DNA of 34,847 nt from a bacterium (GTDB lineage: Bacteria > SZUA-182 > DTGQ01 > JAFGSM01), in the NCBI GenBank assembly GCA_016934595.1, contig JAFGSM010000183.1, positions 1-34,847 on the forward strand, given 5' to 3'. Below the pieces are notes generated by a model. That model saw only the letters and a list, made by a program, of their open reading frames with translations, had not been told where the DNA came from and ran no database searches. The position numbers and the translations under genes are program-made. Shown in pieces: positions 8,571 to 19,410 of the stretch. The stretch's first letter is position 1. The number at the start of each line of letters is the position of its first letter.

Positions 8571-11500
8571 TCAAAGGGCCTGCCATAAACCTCCTGGAAT
8601 GGGAGGAAATCCTTGCCTCCCGCTTATTATAAGATAACTCTCTTCATCATCTTCCCTTTCTGCGCACTGTTTGGGAAAAAATAAAACAAAATCCTTAAGT
8701 GAATCAGGCAAGACGGCTAATCTGCCGCTTATATCAACCACAGGGGCGTCGATTTCCACTATTCCATCTATGCCAAGGCGGGAGGAGGCTCTTACAATGC
8801 TTTCAGAAGAAGAAACAAATACGTCACAGACAATATTGATATTCCCCCCCCTTCCAGCCTCTGCATCTGCGATAATCCTACTTTTGTTTAAAATCACAAA
8901 GACAGGATCGATCATTATATTGCCGCCATTTCCGGCGCCACCTTTCACCGAAGTCGTTATTTGGCTATTTTTCAGGTCTACCAAACGTTGAGCATGAATC
9001 TGGATATTGCCGCCATCTGCGCACTTAGCTTCGGTTGTGATGAAACTGCCTTCACAATATATCGCGTCAGCGGCATTTATTATTATGTCTCCGGCATTTC
9101 CTGTATCAGAGCTGTCTGCCATGATATTGGCCCTATCGTATAATTGCAGATCGTCTACAGATATTCGGATCGTGCCCCCTTTCCCTTTTCCCAGTGTTGA
9201 AGCCATTATACAGCTTCCATCTCCGGATAACATTAAATATCCTGCTGACAATGATATACCGCCGGCATCTCCATCTGAAGACGCCAGGCTGCAAATTCCC
9301 GCATAGGAACCTTCACCGCTCATGTTGGATACGTATATATTATCTAAGGCAAGAACCGATATGTTGCCGCCATTCCCTGATCCAAGGCTTGAGCTGTTAA
9401 TCAATCCGTCATCTGTTATTTTCAGATCCTTGACCTTTAACGAGATATTGCCTGCGTTTCCATTGGTGAATTCCCCTGCAAGCGTTTCTATAATACCCCC
9501 ATCAGCGATCACCAGCAGAGGCGTTTCAATATCGATAGATCCTGCTCTGGCATCCCCTCCTGTAATGGCCTTTATCCTGCTTCCGGAAACAAAGACAGAA
9601 TCCTCAGCAACGATCATTATATCCCCTCCGCAGCCATCGCTTTCGTTTGTGCTTGAATCAATCTGAGAGCCATGGGTTATTTCAACAGTCCCTGCCTGCA
9701 CTGTGATTTTGCCTGCCGATCCACTGCCAAAAACCGTTGAGGAGCTTATCTGCCCTCCATTGTGAACAGTTAAATAAGGTGTGGATATAAAGATATTCCC
9801 TGCATTCCCGCTGCCTCCGGTCATGCTGAAAAGCCCAAATACGGAGAAAGGCCCATCCCTTAAATGTGAAATCATTATAGATTCCGAAGCGGAGATTGTT
9901 ATGTCCCCGCCTTCTCCTGATGATCCTTTTAGACAACTTGCGCTTATATAACCATCCAATATTTCCAGGCGATCCAGTTCCATGAGGATATCCCCTCCCC
10001 TGCCTTCAGAATCAGTAACACCGCTGATAATCCCGCCATTTTTGATAGTCAATCTGGACGTTTTTATGGAAACACTTCCGGCATCGCCTTCCCCCCTGGC
10101 TTCAGACCCTATGCCGCTTGTAGATCCCTTTTGGGAGCCGGATATCAGAATAGAGTCCCATGCGCATATCATTATATCACCACTTTGGCCTGAACCGTAA
10201 GCATTAATTGCTATCTCCCCGCCCTTTGTCAAAACCAGATCTTCCACATCTATAACAACATCAGCGCCCCTGCCTTCGGAATCCGGATATGTCTCCCCCG
10301 AAATAATACCCTCGTTGCCAATAATAAGGCATGAACCCTGCACAGAAATAGCGCCTGCATTGCCGCTTCCATTGGCATGAGAATATATACCGCTTTTCTG
10401 CTCCCCTGCGCCCCATATACTTATAGACCCTTTGGCCTTGACCGTAACATCTCCTCCCCTGCCCTGATCAAGGCTTGAATTATCGATATTCCCTCCGCCT
10501 GTGATTTTTAAATTTTCTACATCAACCGAAATATCAGGGGCAAGGCCGGAACCAAAATTCTCACCTGAAATCTTTGCATTGCCTGAAATAGCCAGATTAG
10601 GCGAAGATATCAAAAGATCGCCTGCATCCCCTTCATCCTCCCCCCATAAATACACGCCGCTATGGACACCGCCGGCATCAAAATCCCCTGATATTTCGAT
10701 TGATTCACCGGCTGAAATGTGGATGTCCCCTCCCTGTGAATATCCGCTTGATCCGCTTTTTATTGTGCCGTTATTAGCAAGCGTCAATTTCTCTGTATCA
10801 ATCAAGATATCGCTGCTTTTCCCTTTTTCTATTCCACAGGTTTTAATCTCCCCCCCTCTTGTAACAAGCAACTCATCCCTCATGCCTATGTCAATGCGTC
10901 CTTCCCCTTCTCCTGCTTGTACTGTCGAACTGATATATGAATTTGCGATCTCAAACCTTCCGCCGCGTATGATAATTCTCCCTGCATCTTCACCTGAAAC
11001 TTCGATAGAAGAGTCATTCGACATTCTGATATCTCCAAGCCGGGCGAATGAGTCAAGATTCTTATCGGAATCATCCGGTAAAACCTCGCCTCTGGAGGAG
11101 ACGCTGATCAGATTTATTTGGCCGCTTTTTGCATGACACACTCCATTTACTATTTCCAGATCCCCTCCCACCAGGGATAATGCCTCCCCTTCCTGGGTTT
11201 CAAGAGAGGCCCCATCAATAGAAATACCGGCAGGGTCATCACACAAGAAGCCAAAAGCGCTGGGCGGATCAACACTTAAAAGGCTTTGATCAGGACGGGC
11301 TGCATCAAAACGCCCTTTCTCCCCAAGCCTTATATAGTCGGCAGTGGTTGCATGGAAAGAACCGGAAATATCAATTTGTGCATTGGGGCCGAACAATACG
11401 CCGCTGGGGTTTATCAAATAAAGATCGGCGTTTGTGATTGTTGATCTTATAATGCCGTCGATCCATGAAGCTGTTCCTCCTGTCACGCGGCCAATTATAT

Positions 11501-11807
11501 TCTCTATGCCTGAATGACCTGCAAAGGTTGCGGTTTCACCTGAGCGCACATTGAATTCCCTGAAACTGTGAAACAGGTTAGCTCCGACCTGCTTGCCCAT
11601 CGTATCCATGATTACATAGTCAGGTCCTGAAAGATCGCTGTATAGCCCTAATGTCCCGTCAAATGCAATCTGGGCATAAGCCCTGGCAGAGAATACCCAT
11701 TGATGCGATATCAAGAATATGAATACGAATACAAACACTAATACGGATACGAATTTTATTACAAAGGTAATAATGCGCCTTATGCTTGTAAATATTTCAG
11801 GATACAT
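8571..11807 (-). CDS. Two-partner-secretion exoprotein, filamentous haemagglutinin N-terminal (TPS) domain plus right-handed beta-helix repeats
   Basis: Signal/TM segment then AQIAFDGTLG...FHSFREFNVRSGETATFAG...IIGRVTGG..SWIDGIIRSTITNADLYLINPSGVLFGPNAQIDISGSFHATTADYIRLGE, followed by repeated GGDI.I.A..SI.ISG / GNAG.I.I motifs. Confidence 0.93.
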   Translation of the reverse strand: MYPEIFTSIRRIITFVIKFVSVLVFVFVFIFLISHQWVFSARAYAQIAFDGTLGLYSDLSGPDYVIMDTMGKQVGANLFHSFREFNVRSGETATFAGHSGIENIIGRVTGGTASWIDGIIRSTITNADLYLINPSGVLFGPNAQIDISGSFHATTADYIRLGEKGRFDAARPDQSLLSVDPPSAFGFLCDDPAGISIDGASLETQEGEALSLVGGDLEIVNGVCHAKSGQINLISVSSRGEVLPDDSDKNLDSFARLGDIRMSNDSSIEVSGEDAGRIIIRGGRFEIANSYISSTVQAGEGEGRIDIGMRDELLVTRGGEIKTCGIEKGKSSDILIDTEKLTLANNGTIKSGSSGYSQGGDIHISAGESIEISGDFDAGGVHSGVYLWGEDEGDAGDLLISSPNLAISGNAKISGENFGSGLAPDISVDVENLKITGGGNIDNSSLDQGRGGDVTVKAKGSISIWGAGEQKSGIYSHANGSGNAGAISVQGSCLIIGNEGIISGETYPDSEGRGADVVIDVEDLVLTKGGEIAINAYGSGQSGDIMICAWDSILISGSQKGSTSGIGSEARGEGDAGSVSIKTSRLTIKNGGIISGVTDSEGRGGDILMELDRLEILDGYISASCLKGSSGEGGDITISASESIMISHLRDGPFSVFGLFSMTGGSGNAGNIFISTPYLTVHNGGQISSSTVFGSGSAGKITVQAGTVEITHGSQIDSSTNESDGCGGDIMIVAEDSVFVSGSRIKAITGGDARAGSIDIETPLLVIADGGIIETLAGEFTNGNAGNISLKVKDLKITDDGLINSSSLGSGNGGNISVLALDNIYVSNMSGEGSYAGICSLASSDGDAGGISLSAGYLMLSGDGSCIMASTLGKGKGGTIRISVDDLQLYDRANIMADSSDTGNAGDIIINAADAIYCEGSFITTEAKCADGGNIQIHAQRLVDLKNSQITTSVKGGAGNGGNIMIDPVFVILNKSRIIADAEAGRGGNINIVCDVFVSSSESIVRASSRLGIDGIVEIDAPVVDISGRLAVLPDSLKDFVLFFPKQCAEREDDEESYLIISGRQGFPPIPGGLWQAL

Positions 11808-13134: not shown

Positions 13135-13836
13135 ATGAAGAATAAAAAATCCTTTATTTCGATGATTGTTCTAGTTGTAGCATTATTACTTGCAATTACT
13201 ATAACTTCCACGCCTCCAGCCTATTCGTATTATGGAATGTACGGCGGTTTAGCGGGCGGCCTGTATGGCGGCTATGGCCTCAGCGGACTCGGCATGTATG
13301 GCGGCTATGGCCTCAGCGGACTCGGCCTGTATGGCGGCTATGGCCTCAGCGGACTCGGCCGTTATGGAATTTATGGCGGCCTAATGGGCGGACTAGGTGG
13401 TCTAGGCGGTTATGGCCTTGGCGGCCTAATGGGCGGACTAGGCGGTTATGGCCTTGGCGGATTAATGGGCGGCCTTTACGGATTAGGCGGGCTCGGCATG
13501 TATGGCGGATTAATGGGCGGCCTCCTCGGACTAGGCGGCCTCGGCGGCCTCGGTTTTGGCGGCATAGGCAGTCTGCTGGGAAGCAGCATTTACGGACTCG
13601 GCGGCCTAGGATTGATGGGGATGTACGGACTCGGCGGCCTTTATGGAATGGGTATGTATGGCGGCGGATTGTACGGCTCTTCAATCCTCCAGGCTCTGCT
13701 TGGTCAGTCTCCTGCAACCACAACGCCAGCGGTTGCCACACCTGTTGTTGAACCTGTAGCGACACCTGTAGCGACACCTGTAGCAGCCACACCAATTGCA
13801 ACCGCATCTGGTTTCTTATTCCCATTCTTCTGGTAA
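13135..13836 (+). CDS. Secreted Gly/Leu/Tyr-rich repeat protein with Pro/Ala/Thr/Val C-terminal region
   Basis: Signal peptide MKNKKSFISMIVLVVALLLAITITSTPPAYS; LYGGYGLSGLG-type repeats; SD AAGGAG upstream. Confidence 0.8.
   Translation: MKNKKSFISMIVLVVALLLAITITSTPPAYSYYGMYGGLAGGLYGGYGLSGLGMYGGYGLSGLGLYGGYGLSGLGRYGIYGGLMGGLGGLGGYGLGGLMGGLGGYGLGGLMGGLYGLGGLGMYGGLMGGLLGLGGLGGLGFGGIGSLLGSSIYGLGGLGLMGMYGLGGLYGMGMYGGGLYGSSILQALLGQSPATTTPAVATPVVEPVATPVATPVAATPIATASGFLFPFFW
13261..13359 (+). repeat. Three tandem 33-bp coding repeats (LYGGYGLSGLG)
   Basis: ctgtatggcggctatggcctcagcggactcggc repeated nearly perfectly at 13261, 13294 and 13327. Confidence 0.9.
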
Positions 13837-13858: not shown

Positions 13859-13911
13859 AAAAAAGGGACATCTAATCTCCAGATAGCCTGGAGACGGGAT
13901 GTCCCTTTTTA
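13859..13911 (+). terminator. Rho-independent terminator-like hairpin
   Basis: aaaaagggacatc...gatgtcccttttt stem with inner ctccag/ctggag helix and T-run, just after the Gly-rich CDS. Confidence 0.85.
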
Positions 13912-13928
13912 TTAGCTTTATTGATAAC

Positions 13929-14963
13929 ATGGTCTATAAAAAGAATCTAAAAGGGGATAAATTAAAATATTTTTTAGGCATTCTTGTCCTGTCTTTTTTT
14001 ATTGCCTGGCAGGTTGGACAAGCTTCTGGAGAAGGCCATAGACTAAAAGATCCGGTTAAGATTCATGCAGATGGAAAACCCATTAAAATGTTGGGAGGAT
14101 CATTTGTTACAGTATGTGATTGGGACAATGACGGGAAAAAGGATTTGATTGTAAACGACGGGAATATAGGATCTTTTTACATCTATCTAAATCAGGGAAG
14201 CGATTCGCAGCCTGAATTTAAAGAGGCATCCTCTTTGAAAGCCGGAGGATCCGTAATCTTAGGCTGCTGAGGCAGCAAGAATCCACAATGTCCGCAGGTT
14301 GTGGACTGGAACAATGATGGGAAAAAGGACCTGATCACAGGAAGCAAACTGGGCTATATATTGATCTATATTAATGCGGGAACGGACAAGTCACCCCAGT
14401 TAAGAAGTCATGAGATGCTTAAGGTTGAAGGAATAAGATTCAAAAGCGGCTATGAGACAGGAATTGATGTCTTTGATTGGAATAATGACGGCAAAAAGGA
14501 TATCCTTTATGGAAATGATGATGGATATGTATATATCCTGATTAATTCAGGAGACAGGGACTCATCTTTATTTTTGAATAAGGATCATTATACACTTGAA
14601 GTAAATAGGCAAAGGATCAATCTGGGAAGCTATATCCATCCAGTTGCCGCTGATTGGAATGGAGACGGCAAAAAGGATCTTATTGTTGGGGAGGCAAATG
14701 GCTCTCTATATTATTTAGAAAATAAAGGTTCCGATGACAATCCTGTTTTTCAGGAGGCAATGAAATTGCGGGCAGGTGACGAGGAATTAGATATCGGCAT
14801 TCGATCAAGGCCCGAGGTCATAGACTGGAATAATGACGGGGTCCTTGATATCCTCTGCGGAGGTGTTGAATCCTGGAAATCGGCCTTTGGTTTTATCTGG
14901 TATTTCGAGGGGGAAAAGGGAAAAGCCGAATCTTCCCCTGTCAACAGCGCTGAAAGCCATTAG
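13929..14963 (+). CDS. VCBS/FG-GAP repeat secreted protein read through an in-frame TGA at 14268-14270 (selenocysteine or nonsense mutation)
   Basis: Two track ORFs (13899-14270 and 14301-14963) are in the same frame with homologous DWNNDGKKDL repeats on both sides of the TGA; signal-like N-terminus KYFLGILVLSFFIAWQVGQASG. Confidence 0.75.
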
Positions 14964-15134
14964 CTCTCTTAGGATTTTTATATGCCTTTCAAGAAGCAAA
15001 ATCAGATTTAATACTAAAAAATCCAAGGAGACCTTTTTATTTGTAATCCGCTTTATAATACATTTTCAATAAGTTGGACCAGAAAGAGCTCCGTAATTCC
15101 AAGTTTAATATTATTTATATTTATTTTAGTATTC

Positions 15135-15443
15135 ATGGGATGCAATAAATCACAAATATACTTAGAAGGTCCATCACCTGTTTCATCCGGAGTATGTTTT
15201 AGATTATTTTATAAAGACGCGGATACCATTAACATCGCGGGAGACTTTAACAACTGGAATACATTAATGCATCCCCTTTCAGAGGATCAAGCCGGTTGTT
15301 GGTCTATTGTGATACCCCTTCCCAAGGGAAGATACCAGTACCAATTTATTATCAACCAGGAAATATGGATCACTGATCCAGGGGCAGAGATGTTTGCAGA
15401 AGATGGTTTCGGGAGTAAAAATTCTTTATTCATTGCAGACTAA
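15135..15443 (+). CDS. Lipoprotein with a glycogen-binding-like E-set domain (CBM48/AMPK1_CBM family)
   Basis: VCFRLFYKDADTINIAGDFNNWN...WSIVIPLPKGRYQYQFIINQEIWITDPGAEMFAEDGFGSKNS; lipobox LVFMGC with an in-frame hydrophobic signal peptide upstream of the ATG, so the true start is probably upstream. Confidence 0.75.
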   Translation: MGCNKSQIYLEGPSPVSSGVCFRLFYKDADTINIAGDFNNWNTLMHPLSEDQAGCWSIVIPLPKGRYQYQFIINQEIWITDPGAEMFAEDGFGSKNSLFIAD

Positions 15444-15658
15444 ATCCAATTGCTTTAATTATCGTAACTGCTCAATATGTAACTTTTTTTAAATACGCTT
15501 GTATAACATATTGAATATTTAAATATAGAACCATAGGAGTTCAACACGAAAATACGATTTCATTAATGGGGGTGGCCAATGTAAGTTCGGCCATGAGGGT
15601 TTAGTACATATAATGAAATATAATGTAACGGGTTCATTAGTACACTCTGGAAATATTC

Positions 15659-16249
15659 ATGACGGATTCACACGATAATCTTCTTGTGCAAGGTACGTTA
15701 GATGGGGATATGGAATCATTCAGATTGCTTGTTGACCGTTATAGGAATGTCTTGTTTAATTTGGCTTATAGACTTACTCAAGACAGGGAGACAGCAGAGG
15801 ATATGGCACAGGAGACATTTATCAGGGCCTATGAAAATCTTGACAAGTTTGATCAGGAAAGGGGCTTTTTTACCTGGCTGTACACCATTTGTACGAATCT
15901 TACAATTAATGAATTAAAGAAGAAGAGTCGTCTGAAAAAGACTTTTTGCACTGAGGAGATTGACAAAAAAGATGGAGAAAAACTTTCCACATGGACTAAT
16001 GAGCAGTTGGCCGAAGGAGAACGGAATATCGAAAACAAAAGGCAGCAGAAGCTGCTTAACGAGATAATTTGGGCAATCCCGGATGAATATCGTACGGCTG
16101 TTATTTTAAGATATAAGGAAGAATTGTCTTACAGGGAGATCGCTGATATCCTGAAGATATCCGTGAGTCTTGCAAAGGTTCGTGTTCACAGGGGCATTGA
16201 AAAGCTCCGGAACCTTTTTCGGGAAATGGGGTACGAAGGTGAAACATAA
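15659..16249 (+). CDS. ECF (sigma-E-like) RNA polymerase sigma factor
   Basis: FRLLVDRYRNVLFNLAYRLTQDRETAEDMAQETFIRAYENLDKF (sigma2) and IPDEYRTAVILRYKEELSYREIADILKISVSLAKVRVHRGIEKLR (sigma4). Confidence 0.95.
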   Translation: MTDSHDNLLVQGTLDGDMESFRLLVDRYRNVLFNLAYRLTQDRETAEDMAQETFIRAYENLDKFDQERGFFTWLYTICTNLTINELKKKSRLKKTFCTEEIDKKDGEKLSTWTNEQLAEGERNIENKRQQKLLNEIIWAIPDEYRTAVILRYKEELSYREIADILKISVSLAKVRVHRGIEKLRNLFREMGYEGET

Positions 16250-16934
16250 GGATTTTAAAGAACGGATTTTTAATATTATTGATGGAGAGGCATCTGAAGA
16301 GGAGAGGGCCATTCTTGAAAAGGAATGCTCCGAAAACCCTGAAGTTGCAAGGGAAAAAGAGTCTTTGGAAAACATAGTCTCTCTGTTAAAACATACGGAA
16401 AGGTTAGAAATACCTGATGGATTCACGGAAAAAGTGATGGAGCGAATATCAAAGAGGCATGTTCGCCTGAAGCGAAAAATCGCCTGCTGGATCAGGCCAT
16501 TGGTCAATATTCAAATCGACCGGGCATTGAAATGGTCTCTTGCCATTTCCTTTGTTTTATTGATATGCGGGGGGCTAGTCTTTCAGCATTTCCGGTTTAA
16601 ACGGATGTATACGCAAATTGAATACCTGGAAAGGCAGGTTTTGGATCTTAAAAACAGTACGGTTGCGACCCGATTTGTCTTTCACTGTCCAACGGCTAAA
16701 ACTGTTCACCTTTCGGGCACATTCAACGATTGGCAGGTTAATGATGAATCCAGATTAATAAAAACCGGATCCGGAGACACATGGTCTATTACATTGATGA
16801 TCAAGCCAGGAAGATATGAATATATGTTTCTGGTTGATGAAAAGGACTGGGTGATAGATCCAGGGGCAACGGATTTTAGTTCCGATGGATTCGGCAGCAA
16901 AAACAGTATTGTAAATATTTATCAGGAAATATAA
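16239..16934 (+). CDS. Membrane anti-sigma factor with C-terminal extracytoplasmic glycogen-binding-like (CBM48/AMPK1_CBM) domain
   Basis: GTG start overlaps the sigma stop; N-terminal FKERIFNIIDGEASEEERAILEKECSENPEVAREKE; single TM WSLAISFVLLICGGLVFQH; C-terminal VHLSGTFNDWQ...GRYEYMFLVDEKDWVIDPGATDFSSDGFGSKNSIV. Confidence 0.85.
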   Translation: MKHKDFKERIFNIIDGEASEEERAILEKECSENPEVAREKESLENIVSLLKHTERLEIPDGFTEKVMERISKRHVRLKRKIACWIRPLVNIQIDRALKWSLAISFVLLICGGLVFQHFRFKRMYTQIEYLERQVLDLKNSTVATRFVFHCPTAKTVHLSGTFNDWQVNDESRLIKTGSGDTWSITLMIKPGRYEYMFLVDEKDWVIDPGATDFSSDGFGSKNSIVNIYQEI

Positions 16935-16955: not shown

Positions 16956-17780
16956 ATGAACAAAAAATACCTTAACATAAGATCGATTTTCTCATTTTCT
17001 TTGTTTATCTGCCTTATATGCTACATATATTTTTTAAGACCGATATCCCTTGTTTCCTGTGCCTGGGCAGAAGGGTCCATAATTACAACGGAAAAAGGTA
17101 AAAAACTTGTCGAAATCGCCGCCATACAGAAGATCCCGGATGAGGAATTAAATCAAATATTAGGCGTTATCCAAAAGGCAGGGGATGAAAGATTCCCAAC
17201 CGAACCGTTTCTTAATAAGGCATTGGAAGGGATGTCCAAAAGGGTTTCTCCTACATTAATCCTCAAGGCACTTAAGGATAGGCTTGAGCATTTTAGAACA
17301 TGCCAAAGATTACTGCAGTCAATGCCTGAATCCGAAAAAGAGCCTGAATCCCAAAAGCAACAGGTTTTGACAATAATTACTGAATCTATTATCAGAGGCG
17401 CAAACGAAAAAGAGCTGGAAGAATTGGCCGGCCTTGCCCCAACTCCTCGATCTATCAATCTGGCAAATGCCTCAGAAGACTTGGCTACATTCAAGAATCA
17501 TGGTTTTTCATCAGCCGATGCTATGGAAATTGTGAAGGCCGGACTTAAAAATGGTATCTATGAAGAACGAAGCAGTGAAACTGCCGCTATCATTCAGGAG
17601 GCAAATCAAAAAGGTTTTTCTGTCGACGAACTGAAAGGCATTTTCCTTTCTAATATTCAGAAGGGCAACAGGATGATAAGAAGGGGAATGGTTTATCCCA
17701 AGCCAGGCCAGGGAAATTCAAGCCGTCAACAACCCCAAGTGAGGGGGAACAATTTCAGGGGGAGTCCATCCTCCCGTTAG
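16956..17780 (+). CDS. Secreted predicted alpha-helical protein of unknown function
   Basis: 274-aa ORF with signal-like hydrophobic N-terminus, downstream of the sigma/anti-sigma pair and co-directional with it. Confidence 0.75.
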   Translation: MNKKYLNIRSIFSFSLFICLICYIYFLRPISLVSCAWAEGSIITTEKGKKLVEIAAIQKIPDEELNQILGVIQKAGDERFPTEPFLNKALEGMSKRVSPTLILKALKDRLEHFRTCQRLLQSMPESEKEPESQKQQVLTIITESIIRGANEKELEELAGLAPTPRSINLANASEDLATFKNHGFSSADAMEIVKAGLKNGIYEERSSETAAIIQEANQKGFSVDELKGIFLSNIQKGNRMIRRGMVYPKPGQGNSSRQQPQVRGNNFRGSPSSR

Positions 17781-17790
17781 GATAGATTAT

Positions 17791-18741
17791 ATGAGAAAAA
17801 TACCCATTTTCAATACAATATCTTTTCTTTTACCTGAAAATCCCTTTTGGGTATTTTCATTGTCCATAATAATCTTTATCATGCATATATTAATCCCGAA
17901 TAAAGCCGGATCTTTATCGTTCGATACAGGTTTCCACTATACAAACTGGGAATATGGACCTGGGGAAAAAACCACATATATTTCCGCCCCCTTACATATC
18001 AAAGGACAACCATTCAAGCATTTAGCGCTTGAAATGACAGTTCCATATATATATCAGAAAAATACCGGAATGGTAAGAATCGGAGACAGTATATATCCAG
18101 CGGTTTCAGACAAAGGAAACAGCCCTCCTTACGGTAAAACATGGGGGCTTAAGAAATACCCCTACACGCTTTATTCCGGCAATATTCAAGAGGGTGTCAG
18201 CAATGATGCCTCTTATATAGAAGGTATAAGCGATAGCGAACATGGAATCGGTGACATTTATATCCTTTTTTCATCCGATTTTAACAATATTTTCAAACGG
18301 TTTCCTAATTATGTGCCGGCCGTTGATCTTTATTCAGGCATAAAGCTTCCTGCTGCAAGTTCAAAAAAGGGCCTTGGCACAGGCGAATATGATTATACTA
18401 TTGGCCTGGATATGGTCTGGGAAACTAACAAGATAGCATATTCTTTATATGGTGATTATACATGGGTTGGAGATACTGAATATGAAAATTTCAAAAACAT
18501 CACCTGTTTCGGATGCGGCGCTGATATAGAGATTTCTTCCAATTATCTTCTTATTTTAAATCTATCCGGATGCACGCCTGTATATTCTGACGGATCCAAT
18601 AGCTATTCCCTGGAGTTGGGGATAAAGAGAAAAATCCTTAAAGACCACTGGATTCACTTTTACGGAATGGCCGGACTAAATGAAGAAAGCCCCGACTACG
18701 GTTTTGGCCTATCCATAGGTTTTAATTTTGACAGGCATTAA
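17791..18741 (+). CDS. Predicted outer-membrane beta-barrel protein
   Basis: N-terminal hydrophobic segment, alternating aromatic beta-strand pattern, C-terminal FGLSIGFNFDRH. Confidence 0.65.
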   Translation: MRKIPIFNTISFLLPENPFWVFSLSIIIFIMHILIPNKAGSLSFDTGFHYTNWEYGPGEKTTYISAPLHIKGQPFKHLALEMTVPYIYQKNTGMVRIGDSIYPAVSDKGNSPPYGKTWGLKKYPYTLYSGNIQEGVSNDASYIEGISDSEHGIGDIYILFSSDFNNIFKRFPNYVPAVDLYSGIKLPAASSKKGLGTGEYDYTIGLDMVWETNKIAYSLYGDYTWVGDTEYENFKNITCFGCGADIEISSNYLLILNLSGCTPVYSDGSNSYSLELGIKRKILKDHWIHFYGMAGLNEESPDYGFGLSIGFNFDRH

Positions 18742-18975
18742 ATCCCCATCCCGATAGTCCCGTCCCTATCGGTAACCAAGTTCACCTTTTTTATACCCAT
18801 TTTGTGTTGTAACCTTTTTCCCTGAAAAATGTATATGGTTTAAACCCGTTAATATGTTAATGATTAAACATCTAAAATTATACCCATATAGGTCGAAAGG
18901 AGGTTTTATGTTTTAGGATCGGCATGCTCATTTAGCTTAAATGACAAACTTGATGAATAGAGAAGGAGGATCAAA

Positions 18976-19410
18976 ATGATGTACAGAATTATCAAAAGAT
19001 ATTGTTTAATGTTTTTATGTATTATAGCTTTGATGATATTTTTTATTAATGCCCCGATAGTATGCCATGGTTTTGAAATTATGATAGATGTGGCGCCAAG
19101 CACTCTAAACATACAAAGCCAGGGCACTGTTGTTACAGTACATACAAATATCGCATTTAGTTCTGTAGAAGGCGGATCAGTGACCTTGAATGACATACCA
19201 ATCGATTGGTGGAAAGCAGACAACCAAGGCAATTTCGTTGCAAAATTCCTGATGAGCGAGGTAAAAGCAATGGCTGATGCTGGAGATTTGGTTGTCCCTG
19301 GAGAAAACGAACTCACTTTAATTGGCTATACCAAAGATGGCGCTGAATTTACAGGAACGCAAACGATAACGGTTATAAACGTATTGCCATCAGGCTCAGG
19401 CGGGAAATGA
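18976..19410 (+). CDS. Small secreted protein of unknown function
   Basis: Strong SD AGAAGGAGG, signal peptide, beta-rich mature part, followed by a strong terminator. Confidence 0.75.
   Translation: MMYRIIKRYCLMFLCIIALMIFFINAPIVCHGFEIMIDVAPSTLNIQSQGTVVTVHTNIAFSSVEGGSVTLNDIPIDWWKADNQGNFVAKFLMSEVKAMADAGDLVVPGENELTLIGYTKDGAEFTGTQTITVINVLPSGSGGK

Follow-up and report, generated by a model that had tools for sequence, protein, structure and literature searches.

A putative transenvelope ECF sigma factor switch with AMPK-type CBM48 domains in a bacterium of the SZUA-182 lineage

The 34,847-nucleotide stretch of DNA analyzed here (hereafter, the window; contig JAFGSM010000183.1 of GenBank assembly GCA_016934595.1) carries a forward-strand cluster of five genes encoding a lipoprotein, an ECF sigma factor, a membrane anti-sigma factor and two further exported proteins, in which the lipoprotein and the predicted periplasmic part of the anti-sigma factor present the same CBM48 domain, of the type found in the glycogen-binding domain (GBD) of the AMPK beta subunit. 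We consider it moderately probable that the cluster encodes a transenvelope ECF switch, combining CBM48 copies at the inner and outer membranes, an anti-sigma factor of the RsiW/RseA type and a regulon of few genes. The frames assigned to the sigma factor, the anti-sigma factor and the CBM48 protein upstream of them are genuine coding sequences. When the five genes were compared across 60 related and distant genomes, a genome from the same order and another family (G001) was found to keep all of them, with order and orientation unchanged; the identities are 50, 55, 45, 46 and 40%, respectively.

The sigma factor gene (15659-16249, forward strand) matches the Pfam families Sigma70_r2 (8e-21) and Sigma70_r4_2 (1.8e-11) and the ECF profile TIGR02937 (7.9e-32; 110.2 bits versus a cut-off of 42.9), and its best-scoring NCBIfam profile is SigW. 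With regions 2 and 4 present and a profile score above cut-off, the product is an ECF sigma factor (sigma-70 group IV). Its assignment to the SigI/RsgI type was considered and rejected, since no SigI family appears among the 25 best profiles shown for it and the top-ranking ones are ECF profiles (SigW, RpoE). The anti-sigma factor gene (16239-16934, forward strand) begins with a GTG codon and overlaps the end of the sigma factor gene, stop codon included, by 11 bases. The original prediction had described its product as a short N-terminal region followed by one transmembrane helix and a CBM48-type domain; the last two elements were borne out, but the N-terminal region spans about 95 residues and contains an anti-sigma domain (residues ~6-75, 16254-16463, forward strand). 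Pfam returned no anti-sigma N-terminal family for this region and the NCBIfam anti-sigma profile NF052375 gave the window protein a sub-threshold score; the similarity to RsiW (5wuq_C, 2.4e-7) and RseA (1or7_C, 6.8e-4) was reached only through a profile (A5) built from twelve related anti-sigma proteins. By this profile similarity, the protein is a predicted class I anti-sigma factor (ASDI), with an N-terminal domain akin to those of RsiW and RseA. Co-encoding with a sigma factor, another mark of the class, is observed directly, in the 11-base overlap here and in sigma factor adjacency at about 40 loci. The Hx3Cx2C zinc motif is missing from the anti-sigma factors of both the window and G001, and an identity as zinc anti-sigma factor (ZAS) was rejected on that basis; ASDIs without zinc are common (PMC7406223).

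The predicted transmembrane helix (residues 97-115, 16527-16583, forward strand) has a mean hydropathy of 2.06 over 19 residues, and the C-terminal domain that follows it (residues 143-228, 16665-16922, forward strand) matches AMPK1_CBM (2.5e-9) and CBM_48 (2.8e-5). Profile A5 aligns this part of the protein with the glycogen-binding domain of AMPK beta1 (1z0n, 1.9e-14) and with a CBM48-like domain from a pullulanase (5ot1, 1.4e-17). The AlphaFold model (mean pLDDT 81) comprises an N-terminal helical domain, a helix at residues 95-138 spanning the transmembrane segment and a C-terminal beta sandwich, and its best PDB fold matches in Foldseek are AMPK beta GBDs, with target TM-scores up to 0.86. 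The arrangement shares with the SigW/RsiW and RpoE/RseA systems a SigW-like sigma factor, an RsiW/RseA-related domain, a single transmembrane helix, overlapping genes, a SigW-like promoter spacing and the site-2 protease RseP, which is encoded in the window genome (at G000:C75; TIGR00054, 1.5e-99). It differs from them in the periplasmic AMPK-type CBM48 domain, the CBM48 partner, the helical partner and an apparently very small regulon. Because the anti-sigma factor is related to RsiW and RseA and the genome encodes RseP, we infer that its signal is transferred by regulated proteolysis.

The gene upstream of the sigma factor had been proposed to encode a lipoprotein made of essentially the same domain, and Pfam agrees, with CBM_48 (1.1e-13) and AMPK1_CBM (5.4e-10) matching the interval 15135-15443; in this protein, as in the anti-sigma factor, both families score above their curated cut-offs. 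The start proposed at 15135 does not stand, however: it would forfeit the signal peptide, and the frame runs on upstream without a stop. The gene must start before 15135, because the signal peptide and its lipobox (LVFMGC, cysteine at 15141) lie only in the upstream frame, where they align with those of the ATG-started G001 orthologue (MNIFQYRSLSYLLCLPLIFMGC). No ATG, GTG or TTG codon precedes the lipobox in this frame (15018-15141), and an ATT codon at 15039 lies 7 nt after a Shine-Dalgarno-like AAGGAGA (15025-15031). Translation thus likely initiates at this AUU, giving a gene at 15039-15443 on the forward strand with an uncertain start, or else the assembly is in error. The missing standard start codon could also mean that, in this organism, the operon is atypical or not active and the CBM48 pairing has no role, an explanation that we regard as highly improbable given the intact frame, the 50% identity to the ATG-started orthologue and the Shine-Dalgarno-like sequence in front of the ATT.

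A further irregular reading frame lies in the neighborhood of the lipoprotein gene. The FG-GAP propeller gene at 13899-14963 is an open frame split by a TGA codon at 14268-14270 (SVILGC-TGA-GSKNPQCPQVVDWNNDG). A SelB gene scoring above cut-off is present in the genome, a hairpin (fold z-score of -2.0) lies about 12 nt after the TGA, and a homologue at locus L269 presents a cysteine-rich GCMGCCP at the equivalent spot. The gene is therefore a selenoprotein candidate, or else a broken gene or a sequencing error.

The distribution of the circuit was assessed by scanning GTDB genomes with the CBM48 part of the anti-sigma factor and sorting the matches by genomic neighborhood, a step by which most matches were dropped as CBM48 proteins unrelated to sigma factors. 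The scan found a sigma factor paired with a CBM48 anti-sigma factor in members of the Gemmatimonadota, Eisenbacteria, Elusimicrobia and Atribacterota (Caldatribacterium), as well as in metagenome-assembled genomes labelled Clostridia and Acidobacteria. Within a spread of 386 genomes, at least 27 contain such a pair. The two sequence-level grounds for doubt named in the original prediction, a missing profile match to CBM48-type domains and a missing linkage in relatives, are thereby removed. A separate CBM48 lipoprotein was identified at seven loci: the window, G001 and five others (L042, L215, L219, L220 and L221), in which it retains a lipobox and lies beside the operon or its helical gene, and one of which (L221) has no sigma factor. 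At 13 loci, mostly in Gemmatimonadota, the second CBM48 instead forms the C-terminus of an exported barrel-like protein of 360-440 residues (one open frame is longer), usually encoded directly downstream of the helical gene. Near roughly half of the operons no second CBM48 was detected. In a poorly resolved tree of 95 CBM columns, too few to date duplications, the second copies do not form a single clade with the window lipoprotein, which groups with anti-sigma domains of other phyla and not with the other lipoproteins. Separately, genome G026 encodes CBM48 lipoproteins without an adjoining sigma factor at three loci (L045, L050 and L051), one of them beside a large gene.

Two other CBM48 architectures were noted. 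In the window genome, L008:5342-6415 encodes a ParA/MinD-like ATPase (AAA_31, 4.9e-59) that ends in a CBM48/AMPK1_CBM domain (1.1e-12), and the same fusion recurs in relatives (L037, L039, L047 and L048) with the same downstream gene, whose product starts with KLGRGLE; this protein is possibly a cytoplasmic, glycogen-linked positioning ATPase. At L231:4362-4883, a helix-turn-helix regulator (HTH_3, 3.5e-16) carries a fused AMPK1_CBM domain (2.6e-14); an apparent glycogen/starch synthase gene lies a few genes away, and the fusion protein could be a transcription factor that senses glycogen directly.

The two secreted or outer-membrane genes that had been noticed downstream of the anti-sigma factor are kept with the operon in G001. 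The first (16956-17780, forward strand) encodes a secreted all-helical protein (AF2 pLDDT 81), here termed g17k, with a disordered C-terminal tail, for which no relative was found in Pfam, NCBIfam or the PDB, by sequence or by fold. The members of its family have in common a short motif around PLxxKALEGxxK, and a profile of nine members identified the family at 24 places in 20 of the 386 genomes (E≤1e-6), four of the 24 matches being among the sequences used to build the profile. All 24 adjoin a CBM48 gene and 23 are in a sigma/anti-sigma operon; the family is hence a marker of this operon, and it appears to be an undescribed protein family. The second gene (17791-18741, forward strand), which closes the conserved cluster, has no Pfam match and encodes a protein that by inspection is a putative outer-membrane beta-barrel, with a 40% identical orthologue at the same place in G001.

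An ECF-type promoter, TGTAAC-N16-TGTATA, is predicted at 15478-15505 (forward strand), 153 bp upstream of the sigma factor gene and downstream of the lipoprotein gene. The SigW consensus, TGAAAC-N16-CGTA, is close to this sequence. The same element, with a T-tract following TGTAAC and a 16-base spacer, precedes the sigma factor gene in the window and in G001 alike, which suggests a cognate promoter and a predicted autoregulated operon; the promoter inference draws on these two genomes. The exact sequence occurs three times in the 3.16-Mb window genome, twice in G001 and not at all in three relatives without a CBM48 anti-sigma match or pair, and the window contains three matches with at most one mismatch versus 0.13 expected. 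Matches with two mismatches were no more frequent than in a reversed control and were dropped, and the ECF-like patterns found upstream of the sigma factor in other phyla are weak, unaligned matches. A second copy with no mismatches (18808-18835, forward strand) lies 141 bp upstream of a gene for a secreted 144-aa protein (18976-19410, forward strand), a predicted regulon member found only in the window genome and G001 among the 60 genomes; in G001, the 245 bases available upstream of this gene do not contain the promoter. The other promoter matches precede small secreted proteins, Gln/Thr-rich in the window genome and Gln/Ser/Arg-rich in G001. In both genomes the autoregulated promoter follows the lipoprotein gene, which therefore lies outside the sigma operon transcript. 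Other secreted or secreted-like proteins encoded in the window include two low-complexity proteins near the cluster, at 13135-13836 (Gly/Leu/Tyr-rich) and 367-1134 (Pro/Val/Ile/Thr-rich repeats), whose genes lack the ECF promoter, and a 1078-residue protein on the minus strand (8571-11807) that by inspection resembles a filamentous haemagglutinin-type secreted beta-helix.

Residues corresponding to the sugar site were scored by position against AMPK beta1 (1z0n) in 41 anti-sigma domains. The tryptophan equivalent to W100 and an aromatic residue at the position of L146 are present in all 41, W133 and N150 are each present in 27, and the K126 equivalent is present in none. Both tryptophans are found in all 13 barrel-fused copies, and among the seven lipoprotein copies W100 is kept in four and W133 in two. 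In the window, the alignment to 1z0n confirmed the earlier claim that the AMPK-GBD-like tryptophan positions are kept in both the anti-sigma factor and the lipoprotein; both proteins also present the asparagine and lack K126. The domain shares with the AMPK beta GBD its fold, the FN[D/N]W and W..DP motifs and a G-x-x-N near the end, and differs from it in being periplasmic and fused to an anti-sigma factor, in not keeping the K126 equivalent and in presenting a DGFG motif. These residues are compatible with glycan binding by many members of the family, and the carbohydrate-sensing system of the original prediction is partly supported; by sequence, the ligand sharing, competition or dimerization that it envisaged for the two proteins all look alike.

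The pattern of conserved residues bears on two further explanations. The anti-sigma factor could be a direct glycan sensor, in which binding of a periplasmic or surface alpha-glucan or exopolysaccharide by its CBM48 releases the sigma factor and the lipoprotein is an independent glycan-binding protein of the surface. The CBM48/AMPK fold and the invariant W100 and aromatic L146 positions are in line with this explanation, as are two loci without the helical gene that adjoin CpsB-like phosphatase genes, one of them together with a Wzc-like gene. There is also a precedent in C. thermocellum, whose RsgI anti-sigma factors expose carbohydrate-binding modules at their C-termini, outside the cell (PMC4711584). 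The SigI/RsgI systems share with the present one a membrane anti-sigma factor ending in an extracytoplasmic CBM-type module and an autoregulated sigma operon, but here the sigma factor is of the ECF type, the module is CBM48 rather than CBM3, PA14 or GH10, a second CBM48 partner is present and the system was found largely in phyla that have an outer membrane. The absence of K126, the loss of W133 and N150 in about one third of the anti-sigma domains, the scarcity of carbohydrate genes among operon neighbors and the recurrent second CBM48, which is left unexplained, make a direct sensor of this kind rather unlikely. Alternatively, the CBM48 domains could be Ig-like protein-protein modules, reporting on the assembly of outer-membrane proteins, lipoproteins or secreted proteins in the way that RseB and DegS report envelope state for sigma-E. 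Several lipoprotein copies keep the sugar-site residues poorly, the predicted regulon consists of secreted and outer-membrane proteins, and many proteins that are not enzymes contain CBM48-like domains. However, the invariance of W100 in anti-sigma and barrel-fused domains and of W133 in the 13 barrel-fused copies exceeds what a scaffold would need, and a sensor with no glycan is considered the less likely of these two explanations.

In the transenvelope switch that we prefer, the anti-sigma factor would hold the sigma factor at the inner membrane in the resting state, with its CBM48 domain engaged by the CBM48 anchored at the outer membrane, either directly or via a shared glycan. If a glycan of the envelope or the cell exterior changed, or the state of the outer membrane did, this engagement would be altered and the anti-sigma factor exposed to site-1 cleavage and subsequently to RseP. 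The freed sigma factor would then act at TGTAAC-N16-TGTATA promoters to transcribe its own operon, comprising the sigma factor, the anti-sigma factor, the helical protein and the barrel, together with genes for a few small secreted proteins. Several observations speak against this model: the many operons in which no second CBM48 was detected, the incomplete conservation of the sugar-site residues, the position of the lipoprotein gene outside the sigma operon transcript, the assignment of the barrel by inspection, the scattering of the second copies in the CBM tree and the derivation of the promoter from two genomes. In the Fox and Pup systems, the anti-sigma factors FoxR and PupR meet their transducers FoxA and PupB via STN domains of homologous structure; in the Fox system, the STN-STN contact shields the anti-sigma factor from proteolysis (PMC11637429). 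By analogy, a CBM48-CBM48 contact, with or without a bridging glycan, is favored as the resting state, because the recurrent pairing of CBM48 domains fits the Fox/Pup pattern with a domain suited to glycans. In FecIRA, FoxIRA and PupB-PupR, as in the present system, the anti-sigma factor of the inner membrane and its partner at the outer membrane present structurally homologous periplasmic domains, STN there and CBM48 here; unlike in those systems, the partner here is often a lipoprotein. Neither a TonB-dependent receptor nor an STN domain was detected by Pfam and NCBIfam in the proteins scanned, and cell-surface signaling of the FecIRA type was rejected on these grounds. More broadly, we tentatively suggest that the circuit could represent an undescribed class of cell-surface signaling present in many phyla. 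Matched CBM48 domains, one on the anti-sigma factor at the inner membrane and one on a lipoprotein or barrel at the outer membrane, would jointly read a surface glycan, and the secreted helical family would be a regular third component; we hold this wider proposal to be possible but somewhat doubtful.

Among the papers open to searching, no report of CBM48-type anti-sigma systems was found, although an earlier mention may exist. For most ECF sigma factors, the signal is unknown. The system described here has an input domain related to sugar binding, a copy of it at the outer membrane, a linked protein family and a near-unique promoter, and both its signal and its output are therefore directly testable. 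If this pairing holds, the use of matched domains at the inner and outer membranes would be a repeated way of signaling across the envelope, realized with STN domains in iron signaling and with CBM48 domains here.
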